Of a stretch of DNA of 64,000 nt, positions 32,451 to 39,521 are shown piece by piece. Positions within the stretch are counted from its first letter, which is position 1. Every line of letters starts with the position of its first letter. The stretch spans positions 1,364,001 through 1,428,000 of the forward strand of contig NZ_PJON01000001.1 in the NCBI RefSeq assembly GCF_002900975.1, in the 5' to 3' direction. Below the pieces are notes generated by a model. It was not told the origin of the DNA and ran no database searches. It saw only the letters and a program-made list of their open reading frames with translations. This DNA is from Tabrizicola aquatica. Its GTDB lineage: Bacteria; Pseudomonadota; Alphaproteobacteria; Rhodobacterales; Rhodobacteraceae. Position numbers and translations under genes: made by a program.

Positions 32451-33553
32451 GCGACCCCGCCCAGGATCGGGCCCATATGGCCCACGCCCTGCGCCTTGCG
32501 GCGCGGGGTCTTGGCAATGTCTGGCCGAACCCGGCCGTCGGTTGCGTTCTGGTTCGTGACGGCGTGATCGTCGGTCGCGGCTGGACCCAGCCGGGCGGCC
32601 GCCCCCATGCCGAGGTCCGCGCCTTGGAACAGGCCGGGCCCCTGGCCGAGGGTGCCACCGCCTATGTCACTCTCGAACCCTGCGCGCACCACGGCCAGAC
32701 TCCGCCCTGCGTGAATGCCTTGATCGCGGCCAAGGTGGCCCGTGTCGTCACGGCGCTGACCGACCCCGATCCCCGTGTATCGGGCCAGGGCCATTTCATT
32801 CTCCGCGTTGCCGGCATCGCCGTCACAGAAGGCGTGCTGGAAACCGATGCCACCGCTCTCAACGCCGGCTTCCTGAAACGGGTGACCCAACGCCTCCCCT
32901 TCGTCACCCTGAAACTCGCCGCCTCCCTCGACGGCCGCACCGCCACCGCCACAGGCGAGTCCCGCTGGATCACCGGCCCCGAAGCCCGCCGCAAAGTCCA
33001 CGCCATGCGCCTGAGCCACGACGCCGTCATGGTCGGCTCCGGCACCGCGCTGGCCGACGACCCCGACCTCACCGTCCGCGACATGGGCGCAGTGAGGCAA
33101 CCCGTCCGCATCGTCTTGGACCGCAGCCTCAAACATTCCCCCGAAAGCCGCTTGGGCCGCACCGCCAAGGACCACCCGGTCTGGCTCCTCCACGGCCCCA
33201 ACGCCCCCGAACCGGCCCGCAAGGCATGGCTGGCGACAGGAGCGACGCTACTTGAGATCTCTGAAACCAACGGCCACCTCGACCTGCAAGCCGCCCTGCA
33301 AGCACTGGCCCAGAAAGGCCTCACCCGCATCCTAAGCGAAGGCGGCGCGACGGTTGCAGCGGCGCTGGTGAAGGCGGGGCTGGTGGATGAATTGGCGTTG
33401 TTCAGTGGGGGGGTACTGATCGGATCAGAGGGTCATTCGTCATTGGGGCCACTTTCGCTTCTGAAGTTGGGAGAAGCCCACCGACCTGTCCTGCGTGAGG
33501 CTGCGGCACTGGGGCAAGACACCCTGTCCCGCTGGGCTTTTACCCATTCCTGA
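32447..33553 (+). CDS. ribD: Bifunctional riboflavin biosynthesis deaminase/reductase RibD
   Basis: This 368-residue two-domain enzyme catalyses the second and third steps of riboflavin synthesis. The deaminase domain has GGRPHAEV and [12 protein letters not shown] (zinc ligands). The reductase domain begins near [24 protein letters not shown] and ends in [20 protein letters not shown]. It starts at a GTG overlapping the nrdR stop; an ATG at 32477 is an alternative. No FMN riboswitch is visible, as expected inside an operon. Confidence 0.95.
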
Positions 33554-33584
33554 GCGAACCGTAAGCCGATTCAGGTTGGGTTCA

Positions 33585-33773
33585 TTACTCGATCCGCGCC
33601 CTGATCCAGGCCCACAGCCTATCCCCAAGAAATATGATGAATAGGACAATAGCCGAATTTAAGAAGTCACTGCGGTCTCTGAATGGATCGTAATCTGCAT
33701 CCAGGAAGGCTATTCCGAACAGAATAACCCCCACGGTTATCCTTAACTTGAGAGTTGCCCGATATCCAGTCAT
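33585..33773 (-). CDS. Small membrane protein, low-GC, unknown
   Basis: This possible 62-residue protein starts MTGYRATLKLRITVGVIL, has two hydrophobic segments (about 9-21 and 37-51) and ends in a basic WAWIRARIE tail. A GGGAG ribosome-binding site precedes the ATG. The base composition is lower in GC than neighbouring genes, which hints at acquisition or decay. No family is recognised. Confidence 0.45.
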   Translation of the reverse strand: MTGYRATLKLRITVGVILFGIAFLDADYDPFRDRSDFLNSAIVLFIIFLGDRLWAWIRARIE

Positions 33774-33947
33774 CGCAACTCCCAATGAACGGACGACCCG
33801 ATCATAGGGTACCCACCGCACCGTCCTGCGCGATCACCAAACGCTCCGCCCCCCGTGGGCAGGGGATGGGGGTGGGGCACCCCCGGCCCATGACCGGAAA
33901 TGCCGCCCATCGTCTGGACACATGCCAGACGCTTGACCCCGCTAACC

Positions 33948-34376
33948 TCACCAATGCCCGGTGTTGCCCATGCTCAGCCAAGGCTCCGCCGGCTCCTTCG
34001 CCCCACCCGCCTGCAGCAACTCCACCGACACGTTGTCCGGCGAGCGTACAAACGCCATCCGCCCATCCCGCGGCGGCCGGTTGATCAGCACCCCGTTCGC
34101 CTGCAGATGCGCGCAGGTCGCATAGATGTCGTCCACCTCATAGGCCAGGTGCCCGAAGTGCCGCCCGTCCGACGGCAGCCCCTCGTCGCCGTCCCAGTTG
34201 TAGGTCAGCTCCACAGGGCACTCCGGCTGGCCGGGCGGTGCCATGAACACCAGCGTGAACCGCCCCCCCTCGTTGTCATAGCGCCGCGTCTCCTCCAGCC
34301 CCAACAGCCGGTAGAACGCCATCGACGCCTCCAGATCCTTCACGCGCACCATCGTGTGCAGGTACTTGATCCCCAT
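33948..34376 (-). CDS. gloA: Lactoylglutathione lyase (glyoxalase I)
   Basis: This 142-residue VOC enzyme isomerises the methylglyoxal-glutathione adduct to S-lactoylglutathione. Metal ligands match the family: His7 (YLHTMVRV), Glu56 (PVELTYN), His76 (FGHLAYEVDD) and Glu119 (SVELLQ). The ATG at 34376 has a good GGAGG-type ribosome-binding site. The frame stays open far upstream only as an antisense shadow of thyX. Confidence 0.94.
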   Translation of the reverse strand: MGIKYLHTMVRVKDLEASMAFYRLLGLEETRRYDNEGGRFTLVFMAPPGQPECPVELTYNWDGDEGLPSDGRHFGHLAYEVDDIYATCAHLQANGVLINRPPRDGRMAFVRSPDNVSVELLQAGGAKEPAEPWLSMGNTGHW

Positions 34377-34460
34377 CTCATCCTCCATCCATCTAGCGAG
34401 TATCACCCGCCCTGACCCCAAGTTATAGTAGACCCCGACTCGCCACAACCGGAGGCCCCG

Positions 34461-35366
34461 ATGCCCCTCACCCCCGACCAGCTCGCCGAGATTCAGGCCG
34501 CACGGGCCACCCCCCGCCCCACCCTCCGCGCCGTTTCCGAAGGGATGGAGGCCCATCTCTACCGCGCCCACCCCGTGCTTGACCACGGCTTCATCCGCGT
34601 CATCGACTACATGGGCGACGATGCGGCCATCGTCCAGGCCGCCCGCGTCAGCTACGGCGCCGGCACCAAGCACGTCCAGAACGATGAGGGCCTGATCCGC
34701 TACCTGATGCGCCACTGGCACTCCACCCCGTTCGAGATGTGCGAGGTCAAGCTCCACGTCAAACTGCCCGTCTTCGTCGCCCGCCAGTGGATCCGCCACC
34801 GCACCGCCAACGTCAACGAATACTCCGCCCGCTACTCGATCCTGGACCGGGAGTTCTACATCCCCGCCCCCGAACACCTCGCCGCCCAGTCCACCGTCAA
34901 CAACCAGGGCCGGGGCGAGGTGCTGACCGGCGAAGAAGCCGCCCGCGTCCTCGACCTCCTCAAATCCGACGCCAACCGCGCCTATGACCATTACGAGGCG
35001 ATGCTGTCGCAGGACGGCCAGCAGGGCCTCGCCCGAGAGCTTGCCCGCATGAACCTCCCCGCCAACATCTACACCCAGTGGTACTGGAAGGTCGACCTGC
35101 ACAACCTCTTCCACTTCCTCCGCCTCCGCGCCGACCCCCACGCCCAATACGAAATCCGCGTCTACGCCGAGGCGATTGCGGCCTGTGTGAAGGACTGGGT
35201 CCCCCTGGCCTACGGGGCATTCGAGGACTACCGGATGGGGGGAGTGACGCTCTCCTCCAAGGCGATTTCCGCCTTGAAACGAAGGCTTGCTGGTGAGACC
35301 GTGAGCCAGGAAGACTCCGGCATGTCGAAGGGTGAATGGCGGGAGTTTGTGGAGGTTTGGGGGTAA
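34461..35366 (+). CDS. thyX: FAD-dependent thymidylate synthase
   Basis: This 301-residue flavoenzyme makes dTMP from dUMP using methylene-THF and NADPH. The diagnostic ThyX motif [14 protein letters not shown] is at residues 112-125. A C-terminal segment ([21 protein letters not shown]) is typical of alphaproteobacterial members. The low-GC DUF262 gene begins only 6 bp after its stop, so the natural 3' end of the thyX unit appears to have been replaced. Confidence 0.97.
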
Positions 35367-35372
35367 AAAGAT

Positions 35373-36983
35373 ATGGATGCAGCTATCAGAGATCCGAAAC
35401 CATCCGTCGAAAGAATTGAAGAGCTCGCAAGACGAATTATTGAGAGCGACATACTCTTGCCGAAGTTTCAACGAGATTTCGTGTGGAACCGCGCCCAGAT
35501 AATCGACCTCTTCGACTCAATTTCCAAGAATTACCCAATCGGAAGCATTCTTCTGTGGCTCAGTAAACAGAAACTTCGTTCAGAGGTGAACATTGCTGGC
35601 CTTCCATTCAAGGAAAGACCTGATGAGTATCCAGTAAATTATCTGCTTGATGGCCAACAACGTCTTTCCTGTATTTGCGGCGCTCTTTTTTGGAAACCTG
35701 TGCACGGTGACGAAGATAGTGTTTGGAATATTGCATATGACTTGAAGACAAAGAAGTTCATTCATCTTTCAACAACAGATGAGCCGCCAGTACATCAAAT
35801 TCGCCTAAATAAGTTTCCCGATGCCTCAAAATATTTCGCACATGTCGCAAGTTTGCAGCAAGCTGGGGAAGCAGGTCTCGCCACAGAAGCGGAGCGATTT
35901 TTTGCTTTGCTCAAAAGCTACTCGATCGCTTCAGTAACTTTGCATGATATGCCAATTGAAGATGTGGCACCGATTTTTGAAAGAATCAACAGCACTGGCA
36001 CGAAGCTAACAATTGTAGACCTCATGCGTGCGGCGACTTGGAGTGAAGAGTTTGACTTAGTTGATACCATCGACCAACAGGTTCTAGAAGCCGTTTCAGG
36101 CAAAGGGTTTGAAACCATTGATCGTCGAGCGGTATTGAGGGTAATGTCGTCAGCCTCGGGATTTTCGTTCAGTACAAGTGGAATTGACAAGCTTCGCGAC
36201 CGTACAGCTGATCAATTGAAGGCCGCCGCTGATTCTACGGTCACAGCGTTTAAGCTAGCTACGGACTTCCTTCATGACCAGCTAAAGATTCCGAATGCTG
36301 AAGTTGTTCCTTATGTGAACCAAATTGTCGTGATGGCTGAACTTTTTCGCAGAAAACAGACTCTAAGTGCACAAGAGGTAAACGCGCTTAAGCACTGGTT
36401 TTGGAGGACTACACTCTCGACCTATTTCAGTGGCTGGAGTTCCGGCCAAATGGACATGGATTTGCAGAAGATTGAAGAATTTACTTCGGGAGGATCAAAG
36501 GAGCTAGACATTGGCTCTGGGACTCCACCGAGTTCTATTTGGAAGAGTCGATCATTCCGAGCAAATACCTCGCTTTCGAAATTACTTGGCTTGCTACTTA
36601 CCCAGCATGATCCGCGTGATCTTGTTTCTGGTCAGAAGGTGAAGTTGGCCCAAGCGCTGGCTTGGCAGAACAATCGTGAATTTCATCACATCTTTCCTCA
36701 AGCGTTTCTGAAAGAGCGTGGATTTCATCCCCCGGAGATAAACTCCTTGAGCAATTTTGCTCTGCTGTCCTCGGTGTCCAACAAAACAATCTCCGACCAA
36801 GCTCCGTCTCAATACATCCGAGATTGTGAGAAGCGGATTGGTGCCGATTTTGCTGAGGTGTTGGCCTCAAACCTTATCTCGCCAGCGGCTTTTGATCACC
36901 TGCTGGCAGATGACTTCCGAGCCTTTCGAAACCAACGTTCCGAAGATCTTCATGCAGCTGCTTTGAAGCTTTGTGGATACTAA
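35373..36983 (+). CDS. DUF262/HNH (GmrSD-like) putative defence nuclease
   Basis: This 536-residue protein has an N-terminal DUF262 (ParB/Srx-like) domain with PKFQRDFVW (30-38), YPIGSILLW (54-62) and the DGQQR motif (93-97) that in GmrS-type enzymes is tied to nucleotide hydrolysis. A C-terminal HNH-like DUF1524 region has REFHHIFP (His438 and His439) followed by NSLSNFALL (Asn457, Asn461). This is the single-chain layout of GmrSD/BrxU-like modification-dependent restriction proteins. Base composition is clearly lower in GC than its neighbours (28 of 60 GC in 36241-36300 against 40 of 60 in 34741-34800), suggesting recent transfer. Activity is inferred, not shown. Confidence 0.85.
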   Translation: MDAAIRDPKPSVERIEELARRIIESDILLPKFQRDFVWNRAQIIDLFDSISKNYPIGSILLWLSKQKLRSEVNIAGLPFKERPDEYPVNYLLDGQQRLSCICGALFWKPVHGDEDSVWNIAYDLKTKKFIHLSTTDEPPVHQIRLNKFPDASKYFAHVASLQQAGEAGLATEAERFFALLKSYSIASVTLHDMPIEDVAPIFERINSTGTKLTIVDLMRAATWSEEFDLVDTIDQQVLEAVSGKGFETIDRRAVLRVMSSASGFSFSTSGIDKLRDRTADQLKAAADSTVTAFKLATDFLHDQLKIPNAEVVPYVNQIVVMAELFRRKQTLSAQEVNALKHWFWRTTLSTYFSGWSSGQMDMDLQKIEEFTSGGSKELDIGSGTPPSSIWKSRSFRANTSLSKLLGLLLTQHDPRDLVSGQKVKLAQALAWQNNREFHHIFPQAFLKERGFHPPEINSLSNFALLSSVSNKTISDQAPSQYIRDCEKRIGADFAEVLASNLISPAAFDHLLADDFRAFRNQRSEDLHAAALKLCGY

Positions 36984-37094
36984 ACCCACCGCCAGCCCGG
37001 CCCTCGCAACCCCACCCGGCCCATCACCCCTGAAAACAGTCCACCGGACCGCTGTCGCCCCAAACGCAGGGGCGCGCGGTGCCGGTGCTCACTT

Positions 37095-37123
37095 TTGCCA
37101 AAACCCACATTCTAATATACATT
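37095..37123 (+). promoter_or_regulatory. Putative promoter of the antitoxin gene
   Basis: TTGCCA (37095-37100) and TACATT (37118-37123) are spaced 17 bp in an AT-rich patch that ends about 28 bp before the GTG start of the antitoxin-like gene. The rest of the 167-bp gap after the DUF262 gene is GC-rich and shows no gene. Confidence 0.4.
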
Positions 37124-37150
37124 TCACTTCATATCACAGGACATCACCAA

Positions 37151-37378
37151 GTGACCCACCTCCTCACCCGCCAGATCGCCACGATCACCGAACTCCGCGA
37201 ACCGCACAAAGTCCTCGCGCGGGCGAAGGGAGAGCCTGTGGCAATCCTGAAGAACTCCGAAGTCGCGGCCTATTTGATCCCCGCCGAACTCGCCCACCCC
37301 GAATGGGCTGACCCGACGCACCCGGGCTACGACTCCTTCGACGAGCTTTTCGCAGCCCTCAACGCCCGGGAGACCTGA
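37151..37378 (+). CDS. Orphan Phd/YefM-type antitoxin
   Basis: This 75-residue protein resembles the N-terminal DNA-binding half of Phd/YefM/StbD antitoxins (LTRQIATITELREPHKVLAR, then AKGEPVAILKNSEVAAYLIPAE) with an acidic toxin-binding tail. I chose the GTG at 37151; an upstream ATG at 37079 would add an unrelated hydrophobic stretch. No RelE/ParE-type toxin follows; only a short frame remnant (37375-37476) is seen. It may be a solitary regulator or what is left of a toxin-antitoxin pair. Confidence 0.7.
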   Translation: MTHLLTRQIATITELREPHKVLARAKGEPVAILKNSEVAAYLIPAELAHPEWADPTHPGYDSFDELFAALNARET

Positions 37379-37476
37379 CCGAAGAAATCGGCCAGATCAT
37401 CATCCGCTGCGCTCAAGGGCTGATGGAGGATGGCGACCTTGCCAACTGGCTTCGCGACAAGGCGAAGGCTGGCTAA
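37375..37476 (+). pseudogene. Possible gene remnant after the antitoxin
   Basis: A frame without ATG, GTG or TTG start runs on from the antitoxin end and encodes LTEEIGQIIIRC...NWLRDKAKAG before TAA. The residue make-up is protein-like, and it could be the tail of a lost partner gene or a frame-shifted C-terminus. The rest of the 208-bp gap to the next gene holds only a palindrome at 37553-37567. Confidence 0.3.
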
Positions 37477-37552
37477 CGGGGCATTAACCACCGCCTTAAC
37501 AAACCCCTAACGCCCACGACCAACCCATTGGACCCGAACGACAATCCCAAAA

Positions 37553-37567
37553 TGTCCACCGTGGACA
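37553..37567. promoter_or_regulatory. Perfect palindrome TGTCCAC-C-GTGGACA
   Basis: A perfect 7-1-7 inverted repeat lies 19 bp beyond the stop codon of the peptidoglycan-binding protein gene on the minus strand. A related half (AGTCCACCGGAC) occurs near 37037. It could be an operator or a compact transcript-end signal; nothing nearby decides. Confidence 0.4.
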
Positions 37568-37586
37568 GAGGTCCTTGCGGCCCCCG

Positions 37587-38582
37587 TCACCCGCCCGTCT
37601 CGACCCGGATCAGCCGCACCTGGTCGGCCGTCAGGTAGCCCGTCACCGGCTCTCCGCCGTCGGCCTGCCACTCGGCGATGGCCCGGCGGGTGCCCGGCCC
37701 GAAGGTCCCGTCGGTCCGCTGCGGGTCATAGCCCAGGCGGGTCAGCCGGCGTTGCAGGTCGACCCGCTCGGTCCGGGTCAGGCCCAGCAGGCTCTCCTCC
37801 AGCGCGGCCTCGCTGTCGGCCCCCGAAGCGGGTGCCTCCGCCCCCGCCTGGCTGGCCAGAAGCTTGACCTGCGCCGCCGTCATGTAGCCGGTCTGGGCCT
37901 GCCGGTTCGCCCGCTGCCAGCCCCGGATCGACGCCCGCGTCTTGGCCCCCCACAGCCCGTCCGCCACCCCGGGATCATAGCCCAGGTCGGAAAGCTGCCG
38001 CTGGATCGTCACCCGCTGGGTCCGCGTCAGTTTCAGCGCGGCCTCGACCTGCGCCGGGGTGAGGTCGTCATCCTCGTCCTCGGGCGGCGTCACCACGGCC
38101 CCGCGCAGCAGGACCTTCAGCTGGGCCTCGGTCACATAGCCCGTCACCTTGTCCCCCCGGTCGCGCTGCCAGGTCGCGATCGCGGTCCGGGTATTGCGGC
38201 CCCAGACCCCGTCGGTCCCGTAGGTCCGGTAGCCCAGCCGCGTCAGTTCGCGCTGGACGGCGACCTTCTGGGCGGTGGTGATCCGCAGCCGCGCCTCGGC
38301 CTGTGCGGCCGCATCGGCCGTGCCCTCGGCCGGGGCGCCCAGCCGGGCCAGCGCCTGTTCGGCCCGGGCGCGATAGGCCCCCTTGGGGAACTTTGCCAGG
38401 TAGTCGCGGTAGGCGCGGACCGTGTTCGCCTCCTGCGCCGCGATCCAGGCGTTGCGATCAAGCTCTTGCTGGATCAGCTCTTGCGCGATCCCGCCGATCA
38501 CGTCGCCCAGATCCTGCGCGGGGGCAGGACCGGTAAGGGCAAGGCCGGCCGCCATGGCCAGGGGCAATGAAAGCAACCGCAT
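37587..38582 (-). CDS. Secreted protein with three peptidoglycan-binding domains
   Basis: This 331-residue protein has a signal peptide (MRLLSLPLAMAAGLALTGPAPA, cleavage before QDLGD), an N-terminal SPOR/TPR-like helical segment (YRDYLAKFPKGAYRARAEQALARLG) and three PG_binding_1 repeats. Each repeat has the pattern L..LGY....DG.WG..TR.AI..WQ (about 110-160, 190-240 and 270-320). No catalytic domain is present. It probably binds cell-wall glycan in the periplasm. The ATG at 38582 is chosen to place the signal peptide at the start. Confidence 0.85.
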   Translation of the reverse strand: MRLLSLPLAMAAGLALTGPAPAQDLGDVIGGIAQELIQQELDRNAWIAAQEANTVRAYRDYLAKFPKGAYRARAEQALARLGAPAEGTADAAAQAEARLRITTAQKVAVQRELTRLGYRTYGTDGVWGRNTRTAIATWQRDRGDKVTGYVTEAQLKVLLRGAVVTPPEDEDDDLTPAQVEAALKLTRTQRVTIQRQLSDLGYDPGVADGLWGAKTRASIRGWQRANRQAQTGYMTAAQVKLLASQAGAEAPASGADSEAALEESLLGLTRTERVDLQRRLTRLGYDPQRTDGTFGPGTRRAIAEWQADGGEPVTGYLTADQVRLIRVETGG

Positions 38583-38715
38583 CGGAACATCCTTTCCATC
38601 CCACAGCGGCATCCGCCGCGCTTGCTGGGATAACACCGGGATCGGCCGTCGGTTGCAAGCGGGTGCTGGTCAGCCCGTGCCGGCATGCTACCTTTCTTGC
38701 CGAAGGAGCCCCCGC

Positions 38716-39108
38716 ATGACCCTTACCCTGTACACCGCCACCGCCGCCGTGTTCCTGATCCTGGATGCGATCATGCTGACCCTGGTGATGAAGCCGCTTT
38801 TCAGCCGCCACATCGGCCCGCTTCTGGCCGAGCCGATCCGCATCGCCCCGGCGGCGCTGTTCTATCTGGCCTACATCGCGGGGTTGGTCTACCTGGTATC
38901 CCTTCCCGCGCTGAAAACCGGCGCGCCGCTTCTTCTGCCCGCACTGGTCATCGGATTGATGGCCTATGGCACCTATGAATTCACCTCATGGAGCGTGATG
39001 CGGGACTGGCACTGGACGATGGTGGCGACGGATGTCGCCTGGGGCGGGTTCCTCACGGCGTTTTCGGCCTGGGCTGGGGTGACGATCACCCGGATGATCC
39101 ATGGCTAA
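38716..39108 (+). CDS. DUF2177 membrane protein
   Basis: This 130-residue protein has four membrane segments and the DUF2177 features FLILDAIMLTLVMKPLF (about 13-29), YGTYEFTSWSVMRDWHWTM (about 84-102) and DVAWGGFLTAFSAW. The ATG at 38716 follows AAGGAG. The family function is unknown. Confidence 0.88.
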   Translation: MTLTLYTATAAVFLILDAIMLTLVMKPLFSRHIGPLLAEPIRIAPAALFYLAYIAGLVYLVSLPALKTGAPLLLPALVIGLMAYGTYEFTSWSVMRDWHWTMVATDVAWGGFLTAFSAWAGVTITRMIHG

Positions 39109-39194
39109 GGGCCTTTGCGGCCACCGGCCTGCCATGCTACCCGTAAGGTCAAGCCCTTGATACGGAACGTCCCGCGCGGACGGAAGGAAGTTCC

Positions 39195-39521
39195 ATGATC
39201 CTTTACGGCATCCCGACCTGCGACACCTGCAAAAAGGCCCTCAAGGCGCTGGAGCGGGCGGGCAAGGACGTCAGCTTTCGCGACATCCGGGCCAACCCGT
39301 TGACCCAGGATGAAGTTGACCGGATCGTGCAGGAGTTCGGGTCGAAGGCGGTGAACCAGCAATCCACCACCTATCGCAGCTTCAACGATTTCCTGAAGGC
39401 CTCGGACCCCGAAGCACAGATCATGGCGCAGCCGACCGTGATGAAACGGCCGGTCATCCAGGACGGTGAGCGCTGGTATCTGGGATGGGACAGCGCGACC
39501 GAAGCCGCGCTGACCAGTTAG
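39195..39521 (+). CDS. ArsC/Spx-family thioredoxin-fold protein
   Basis: This 108-residue protein of the arsenate-reductase-like (YffB) family has a CDTC redox pair (Cys9 and Cys12) in MILYGIPTCDTCKKA and a PTVMKRPVIQDG motif near 83-94. It may reduce disulfides using glutathione; no arsenic gene is nearby, so arsenate reduction is not implied. Its last codons overlap the convergent cold-shock gene by 4 bp. Confidence 0.9.
   Translation: MILYGIPTCDTCKKALKALERAGKDVSFRDIRANPLTQDEVDRIVQEFGSKAVNQQSTTYRSFNDFLKASDPEAQIMAQPTVMKRPVIQDGERWYLGWDSATEAALTS

Follow-up and report, generated by a model that had tools for sequence, protein, structure and literature searches.

A probable GmrSD/BrxU-like nuclease gene in a recurrent single-gene slot behind thyX of Rhodobacteraceae

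The thyX locus

The window analysed here, by which we mean the whole stretch of 64,000 nucleotides from Tabrizicola aquatica, contains thyX at 34461..35366 (+ strand), which encodes flavin-dependent thymidylate synthase (Pfam Thy1, E = 4.1e-57; TIGR02170, E = 4.8e-61) and forms the left border of a slot that holds foreign DNA. The 3' end of the gene carries a G/T-rich, C-free stretch, GGGAGTTTGTGGAGGTTTGGGGGT (35341..35364, + strand), which was examined by a pattern search and by codon and C-content controls and which we propose as a docking signal. A gap of 6 bp follows (35367..35372, + strand), exactly 6 because the first ATG after thyX stands at 35373, and no terminator-like site and no sigma-70-like site on the + strand were seen in it. 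The ORF that begins there (35373..36983, + strand) encodes a DUF262-HNH protein of 536 aa, probably a nuclease of the GmrSD/BrxU kind, and is the single-gene cargo of the slot in this genome.

GC content is 0.463 over the 1617 nt behind thyX, compared with 0.66 in thyX and 0.68 on the right side, and a 500-nt profile across 28-45 kb of the window dips to 0.43-0.50 at the cargo gene only. An earlier sequence-only reading had placed a low-GC gene 6 bp after thyX, and both the ORF coordinates and the GC values (46% against about 66%, the sole dip between 28 and 45 kb) bear this out.

The right border, defined as the first DNA in common with other slots of the genus, falls at 36983..37092 and includes a palindrome-like repeat at 37032-37056. 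The first conserved right-hand gene (37587..38636, − strand) encodes peptidoglycan-binding repeats, as judged by eye, and also stands behind thyX in four other genomes of the genus (G019, G023, G024 and G028). An Rfam scan of 33000-39500 gave no match, and a tRNA scan of the window found no tRNA.

Two further elements lie in this right-hand DNA. At 37079-37470, an ORF resembles Phd/YefM-like antitoxins (weak match, E = 0.053), and the DNA directly after it is found in other genomes about 500 bp from the antitoxin match; the segment looks like a toxin-antitoxin pair that has lost most of its second gene. At 37484-37585 lies a dispersed repeat of ~75-100 bp with TTAA-type boxes and the palindrome TGTCCACCGTGGACA, of which the genus has many copies, with 18 or more matches scored in several genomes.

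The slot within the genus

The genus sample comprises 32 genomes, with a thyX match in 28, a complete thyX tail in 25 and 510 nt of sequence behind the tail in 24. Across the 25 spots, the window included, homology to the window is lost no more than a few bases from the thyX stop codon; the segment next to thyX has no blastn match among these spots, and shared DNA resumes after it. In most spots, the foreign segment has a GC content of 0.45-0.50 against 0.63-0.67 in thyX. A drop in GC of at least 0.10 directly behind thyX is seen in 19 of 24 genomes, as compared with 1 of 173 other genes at the same loci, and the main low-GC ORF lies on the thyX strand at all 21 sites (21/21). The exceptions are G003, which has repeats and no cargo gene, G001, which has an IS-like ORF, and G025, which has a GC-rich stretch.

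Three other explanations were rejected: an assembly artefact, by the recurrence of the pattern in independent genomes; vertical decay of a host gene, by the lack of any match between the segments behind thyX; and transposon insertion as a general cause, by the presence of IS-like ORFs (by eye) only in G001 and G031.

The sole full-length match to the cargo protein in the 32 genomes is the window's own, and two other genomes have partial matches (30% identity over residues 23-308, and a match of 39 residues). Acquisition by the host, which the earlier reading had proposed and which the presence of the same gene at the same place in most relatives would have contradicted, agrees with this comparison of thyX neighbourhoods: the full-length gene has no counterpart in the 31 other genomes. 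The proposal of a lone acquired gene stands as regards the foreign insert and gives way in another respect, in that the gene is rather one occupant of a recurrent slot, in which relatives hold other single low-GC genes.

The slot across Rhodobacteraceae

Of 394 genomes, almost all of them the only one from their genus, 315 have a thyX match. Of 313 with a match, we used 128 other genera, picked from a similarity-ranked list with partial loci skipped; their thyX genes are the more similar ones, so the sample leans to nearer relatives. Four loci were too short, leaving 124 usable genera, among which a GC drop of at least 0.10 occurs in 47, no drop in 56 and an intermediate value in 21; in 10-kb control loci, such a drop was found behind 0 of 88 genes. 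Outside the family, by comparison, 28 loci were taken from other alphaproteobacterial families, of which 1 was too short; the 27 usable loci, from 24 families, show a GC drop at 1.

When genus and family are taken together, a low-GC ORF is present at 78 of 149 sites, with a median length of 266.5 aa, and is oriented with thyX in 68 cases and against it in 10. All of the opposed ORFs belong to the other genera (47 of 57 on the thyX strand, 10 of 57 on the opposite one). In 20 genera with long inserts, the foreign block consists of one or two ORFs, and host GC is regained within ~1-2 kb in most. We have little doubt that the single-gene slot behind thyX is real and family-wide. Among the entries listed in a literature search on thyX insertion or attachment sites and on defence hotspots, we found no description of the thyX site.

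Cargo proteins

The foreign block is mostly one gene, and the cargo differs in almost every genome. A family scan covered 39 sites, 20 from the genus and 19 from other genera, the latter chosen and not random; the cargo of G022 and the genus sites of G001, G003, G021 and G025 were left out. PADLOC matches below 1e-5 were obtained at 15 of the 39 sites (SIR2, TIR, DRT, AbiP2 and HEC-04 among them), a count made without an ordinary-gene baseline and in which matches of ATPases and methylases may reflect general kinship. The other 24 sites have no PADLOC match below 1e-5, and several of their proteins belong to no Pfam family at all.

Within the genus, the cargo proteins include a second DUF262 protein with an AlbA-like end (G002; NsnA, 1.7e-25), a SIR2 protein (G004; 5.7e-9), an MT-A70/type II methylase (G005; 3.4e-85), a trypsin-like/PDC-S45 protein (G014; 2.3e-9), an AbiJ_NTD4/PDC-S32 protein (G019; 6.7e-82), a reverse transcriptase of type UG13b (G023; 2e-127), a ThsB-like TIR protein with TIR-8xMP (G024; 1.5e-8, and 1.3e-28 for 8xMP), a Fic protein (G028; Pfam 3.3e-10, PADLOC only 1.1e-5), a DUF3800 protein (G016) and a transglycosylase (G017), while the remaining scanned genus cargo falls into no clear family. 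The other genera contribute TIR (L180), AAA/NsnB (L189), PDC-S59 (L191), HEC-04 (L321 and L339; 1.4e-186), AbiP2 (L322; 1.8e-159), a GHKL ATPase (L328), HicB (L198) and Mrr_cat (L176).

Some cargo recurs in different species. Ten groups of related cargo sit at thyX of different species, for example G029 with L276 (63% identity) and G016 with L246 (59%). The G029 type has two relatives in the 394 genomes, both directly behind thyX, and the G027 type has six, three of them behind thyX. In all genomes with a match to the DUF3800 type of G016 (8 of 8), the match lies elsewhere than behind thyX, so cargo is not thyX-specific in general. In pairs of related cargo, the DNA stays similar from thyX on into the cargo; the similarity dwindles close to the cargo's end or earlier, some pairs have additional short pieces of it, and we saw no right end common to these pairs.

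The DNA right of the cargo has features of its own. A transposase-like ORF, which we take from its motif to be a RAYT, occurs there together with GTAG-headed REP-like palindromes at nine loci (L148, L168, L167, L152, L162, L166, L169, L158 and L159) and at L327:1752-2348, where the ORF has no Pfam match. A REP-like repeat contains the end of the cargo ORF in G006, G014 and G030.

A signal at the end of thyX

In cargo-bearing thyX genes, the final 24 nt are G/T-rich and almost free of C, contrary to host codon usage. Within the genus, TTT serves as the last Phe codon in 22 of 25 genomes but makes up 5 of the 178 Phe codons in the gene bodies, and GTT serves as the last Val codon in 22 of 25, as against 14 of 521. 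The last 15 nt are C-free in 22 of 25 thyX genes, compared with 1 of 215 other genes and none of 44 close same-strand pairs. With up to 3 mismatches allowed, the 24-nt pattern is present at thyX in 25 of the 32 genus genomes and elsewhere once (G017, 3 mismatches), and a reversed-pattern control gave 0 matches. It is the codon choice that is unusual: simple synonymous-site conservation in the last codons was considered and set aside, as it is not exceptional (rank 67 of 266 sequence windows).

The signal is linked to cargo across the other genera. Behind the Phe codon, the C fraction is 0.043 at sites with a GC drop and 0.216 at sites without (p = 4.3e-13), at equal thyX GC. The last Phe codon is TTT or TTC in a ratio of 40:7 with a drop and 27:29 without (p = 1.5e-4; one site with neither codon excluded), whereas further upstream in these genes TTT accounts for 8 of 153 Phe codons (drop) and 29 of 174 (no drop). 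When each cargo site is set against its nearest cargo-free relative, C is lower at the cargo site in 37 of 41 pairs, equal in 3 and higher in 1. In other families, the tails are ordinary, with a mean C of 0.291 against 0.047 at drop sites. Three loci carry the signal without a GC drop (L182, L195 and L178), and three have the drop without the signal (L228, L263 and L232).

The thyX tail thus provides what is expected of a target for an integrase or a transposon, namely a conserved sequence at a fixed place, and it may take part in insertion, a suggestion that we put forward tentatively. We set aside an origin of the signal in phages or satellites, as a search of viral_contigs with two exact patterns found 0 matches. 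An integrase might leave copies of the thyX tail at the right end, and these were rejected as well: direct repeats of 6-11 nt occur in 22 genus spots, with no excess over shuffles. No recombinase was seen by eye among the ORFs of 20 loci (5.8-10 kb long, with ORFs taken to 4.6 kb behind thyX), nor did profile scans of the cargo proteins return one.

How cargo may enter the slot

The strongest rival to insertion guided by the tail is a hotspot of homologous recombination, a serious contender to which we give slightly less than an even chance. DNA of a related cell, containing thyX, cargo and right flank and arriving, for example, through a gene transfer agent (GTA) or natural uptake, would be exchanged by one crossover on the left, within thyX, and another on the right, in DNA that is conserved or repeated, and the C-poor tail would be carried along without acting as a recognition site. 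Full-length thyX copies of the genus are 91-96% identical in protein, many genus genomes have REP-like repeats and a repeated transposase-like ORF on the right side of the cargo, and the window's genome has two GTA_TIM (PF13547) genes (E = 3.4e-155 and 1.6e-144), all of which would favour such swapping. The cargo is small, mostly <1.5-1.8 kb, and would suit short donor pieces; GTAs carry DNA up to a limit of ~4 kb. This explanation is good for exchange within the genus and less so for transfer between genera, where the right flanks differ and homology on the right side is therefore missing. It is also less apt for the codon-level signal, because hitch-hiking alone leaves the C-poor synonymous positions of nearly all cargo-bearing tails unexplained.

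The GTA_TIM genes lie at G000:C1:1645380-1646273 and G000:C1:372580-373461, the second with an in-frame TAG, and the genome perhaps contains two gene-transfer-agent clusters, one of them decayed.

A role of the tail in expression, which we regard as unlikely to explain the signal, would make it a G-rich, C-poor ribosome-binding site and unstructured leader for the next gene, selected once cargo is present. GGAGG or GGGGG does occur within ~15 nt of the stop codon, and at many sites the cargo gene begins 1-60 nt after that codon. Yet 44 other close same-strand pairs, compared in order to see whether the Shine-Dalgarno sequence of a close gene pair causes such tails, have ordinary ones (C 0.34, none C-free); the Phe codon ~20 nt before the stop is also affected; and the signal is kept in G003, which has no cargo gene, and in G015, where the best ORF begins 139 nt after the stop. 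An expression role is possible beside either route of entry.

The cargo protein of the window

The N-terminal half of the window protein matches PF03235 (GmrSD_N, DUF262) in a Pfam profile search at residues 17-221 (35421..36035, + strand), with E = 9.8e-29 and 101.3 bits against a cut-off of 33.2. This domain includes FQRDFVW (residues 32-38) and LFDS (residues 46-49), of which L46 and S49 are invariant and D48 is kept in at least 90% of 22 aligned homologues that reach down to ~24-27% identity. DGQQR (residues 93-97; 35649..35663, + strand) is invariant in all 22. In the C-terminal half, HHIFP (residues 438-442; 36684..36698, + strand) opens an HNH-like region in which H438, H439, F441 and P442, followed by N457, N461 and N470, are likewise invariant, and Ile440 varies.

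As described in the available text of two papers, DGQQR and (R)LFDS are named GmrSD motifs, and in the GmrSD layout the DUF262 domain binds and splits nucleotide and cutting falls to a DUF1524 HNH domain with an E/D-H-N-N motif (PMC4619093, PMC8565348). The window protein departs from that motif: a His precedes the catalytic His in 22 of 22 homologues (HHIFP/HHFFP), and the Asn residues are kept. A search for PF07510 (DUF1524) gave no profile match in the window protein at E up to 1, and 7 of the 22 homologues match it, the best at 1.8e-5. The C-terminal half gives a weak match to the HNH of Cas9 (E = 1.9e-4 and 0.0018).

A structure model built from 22 sequences has a mean pLDDT of 89.1 and a pTM of 0.77. 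The nearest solved structure by profile is BrxU (7p9k; E = 2e-29, residues 16-300), which is also the nearest fold in Foldseek (E = 1.2e-13). The fold alignment covers both halves with a large rmsd, and its TM-scores over the whole chain are low (0.42/0.39) because the two halves are placed differently.

The earlier description of DGQQR in an N-terminal DUF262 domain with a C-terminal HHIFP/Asn HNH-like region is upheld by the profile match and by invariance in the 22 homologues; of the two families that it named for an HMM search, DUF262 was found, and its similarity is retained, and DUF1524 was matched by some homologues and not by the window protein. The assignment to DUF262 nucleases of the GmrSD/BrxU kind draws on Pfam, the structure model and the BrxU profile and fold matches, and we consider it quite probable. 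By analogy, the protein most probably works like GmrSD, though one defining residue is altered. The HNH motif reads H-H instead of D/E-H, so the cutting of modified phage DNA is an inference from the likeness to BrxU.

PADLOC offers a second view of the protein. Its model PDC-M55C, the M of which we take to stand for a multi-gene candidate system, matches residues 7-529 of 536 (E = 4.8e-80). Beside the gene, the ORF at 37079-37378 has no PADLOC match, and thyX and the right-hand conserved gene are non-defence genes by profile or by eye. A literature search on PDC-M55C found no paper. The earlier statement that the gene would act alone fits the lack of an adjacent second low-GC gene and is qualified by a model that comes from a multi-gene candidate system, whose partners were not seen here.

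Homologues elsewhere show both arrangements. Twelve loci with 39-71% identity were found in Litoreibacter, Chelativorans, Hyphomicrobium, Sphingomonas, two MAGs and several actinobacteria. At L006, L008 and L011, the homologue is a lone low-GC insert (0.46, 0.53 and 0.47 against 0.61, 0.62 and 0.68), none of them behind thyX. At four actinobacterial loci (L014-L017), it has type I restriction-like ORFs nearby and shows no GC contrast, and at three of these a second DUF262-like ORF adjoins it, all as judged by eye. Database matches of the window protein include 5 distant ones in phages and 381 plasmid records, all below 60% identity. The window's genome also encodes a second DUF262 protein (L002, G000:C1:1620361-1620777), above the Pfam cut-off.

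These data bear on whether the protein is a different DUF262-HNH effector, answering, for example, to another cue or to a partner encoded elsewhere, and not a modification-dependent restriction enzyme. The PDC-M55C match, the change from D/E-H to H-H in every homologue, the unmatched PF07510 and the company of the actinobacterial homologues all lend it something, but here, as at L006, L008 and L011, the gene is alone in its low-GC DNA, and BrxU is the only convincing structural neighbour; we think a different effector improbable.

A model for the slot and its cargo

The slot with its exact left border, the diversity of its cargo and the signal that is linked to cargo, all of which are observed, are best explained together if the window gene encodes a stand-alone anti-phage nuclease of the GmrSD/BrxU kind and occupies a family-wide single-gene slot behind thyX, in which cargo is exchanged and which is marked by a signal in the thyX tail. 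We give this reading a probability of about two in three. The nucleotide-binding DUF262 domain and the C-terminal HNH-like domain, in one chain, would recognise and cut incoming DNA, the target probably being modified phage DNA. The slot starts at the thyX stop codon, right after the G/T-rich tail, nearly free of C, that takes in the last codons of thyX. Cargo, mostly in thyX orientation and a median of ~35 nt behind thyX, would probably be read from the thyX transcript. Cargo would be replaced between species, with some families moving from one thyX site to another, and the signal may guide insertion; the biochemistry of every step is likewise deduced.

A bolder form of this model, which we hold to be rather doubtful, treats the thyX end of Rhodobacteraceae as a platform: the G/T-rich signal would direct the insertion of one gene at a time, frequently a phage-defence gene and in most cases in the same orientation, and the transcript of thyX, a gene of essential type, would express it. 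The insertion machinery would be encoded elsewhere, which accounts for cassettes without a recombinase, and the arrangement would resemble an integron founded on a housekeeping gene, with its own pool of circulating cassettes.

Defence hotspots are known, but they are usually multi-gene islands carried by mobile elements. The thyX slot, which is family-wide, mostly holds one gene, starts at most a few bases from a stop codon and has a signal in a coding end, raises the question of how single defence genes enter a genome without a recombinase of their own. It is also a place in which to seek new defence genes, given the 24 of 39 scanned sites without a PADLOC match below 1e-5.

Comparison with known systems

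The window protein shares with BrxU/GmrSD (7p9k) a DUF262 N-domain with LFDS-like and DGQQR motifs, a helical middle and an HNH-like C-domain with an HxxP-type motif and Asn. It differs in having no PF07510 match and whole-chain TM-scores of only 0.42/0.39, and in its place by itself behind thyX, outside any BREX island. Where it has HHIFP, BrxU has DHIYP, as given in the available part of PMC8565348. As in PDC-M55C of PADLOC, nearly the whole protein is matched (residues 7-529); unlike PDC-M55, of which that model is one component, no partner is seen beside the window gene.

Tn7 inserts at glmS, and integron cassettes are single genes, mostly in one orientation. SGI1 inserts site-specifically at trmE, according to the part of the literature available to us. 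The thyX slot resembles SGI1 and Tn7 in having its target at the 3' end of a conserved gene, and integrons in holding single genes mostly in one orientation. It differs from all three in that no integrase, no such transposase, no attC-like right end and no direct repeat was found at thyX sites.

The core defence hotspots of Pseudomonas aeruginosa are described, in the available text of PMC10250203, as fixed places between core genes that hold variable foreign defence genes. The thyX slot is like them in its fixed chromosomal place, its conserved flanks and its variable foreign defence genes, and it is set apart from them by holding mostly one gene, by a left border exact to a few bases and by a DNA signal that lies inside the coding end of the neighbouring gene.
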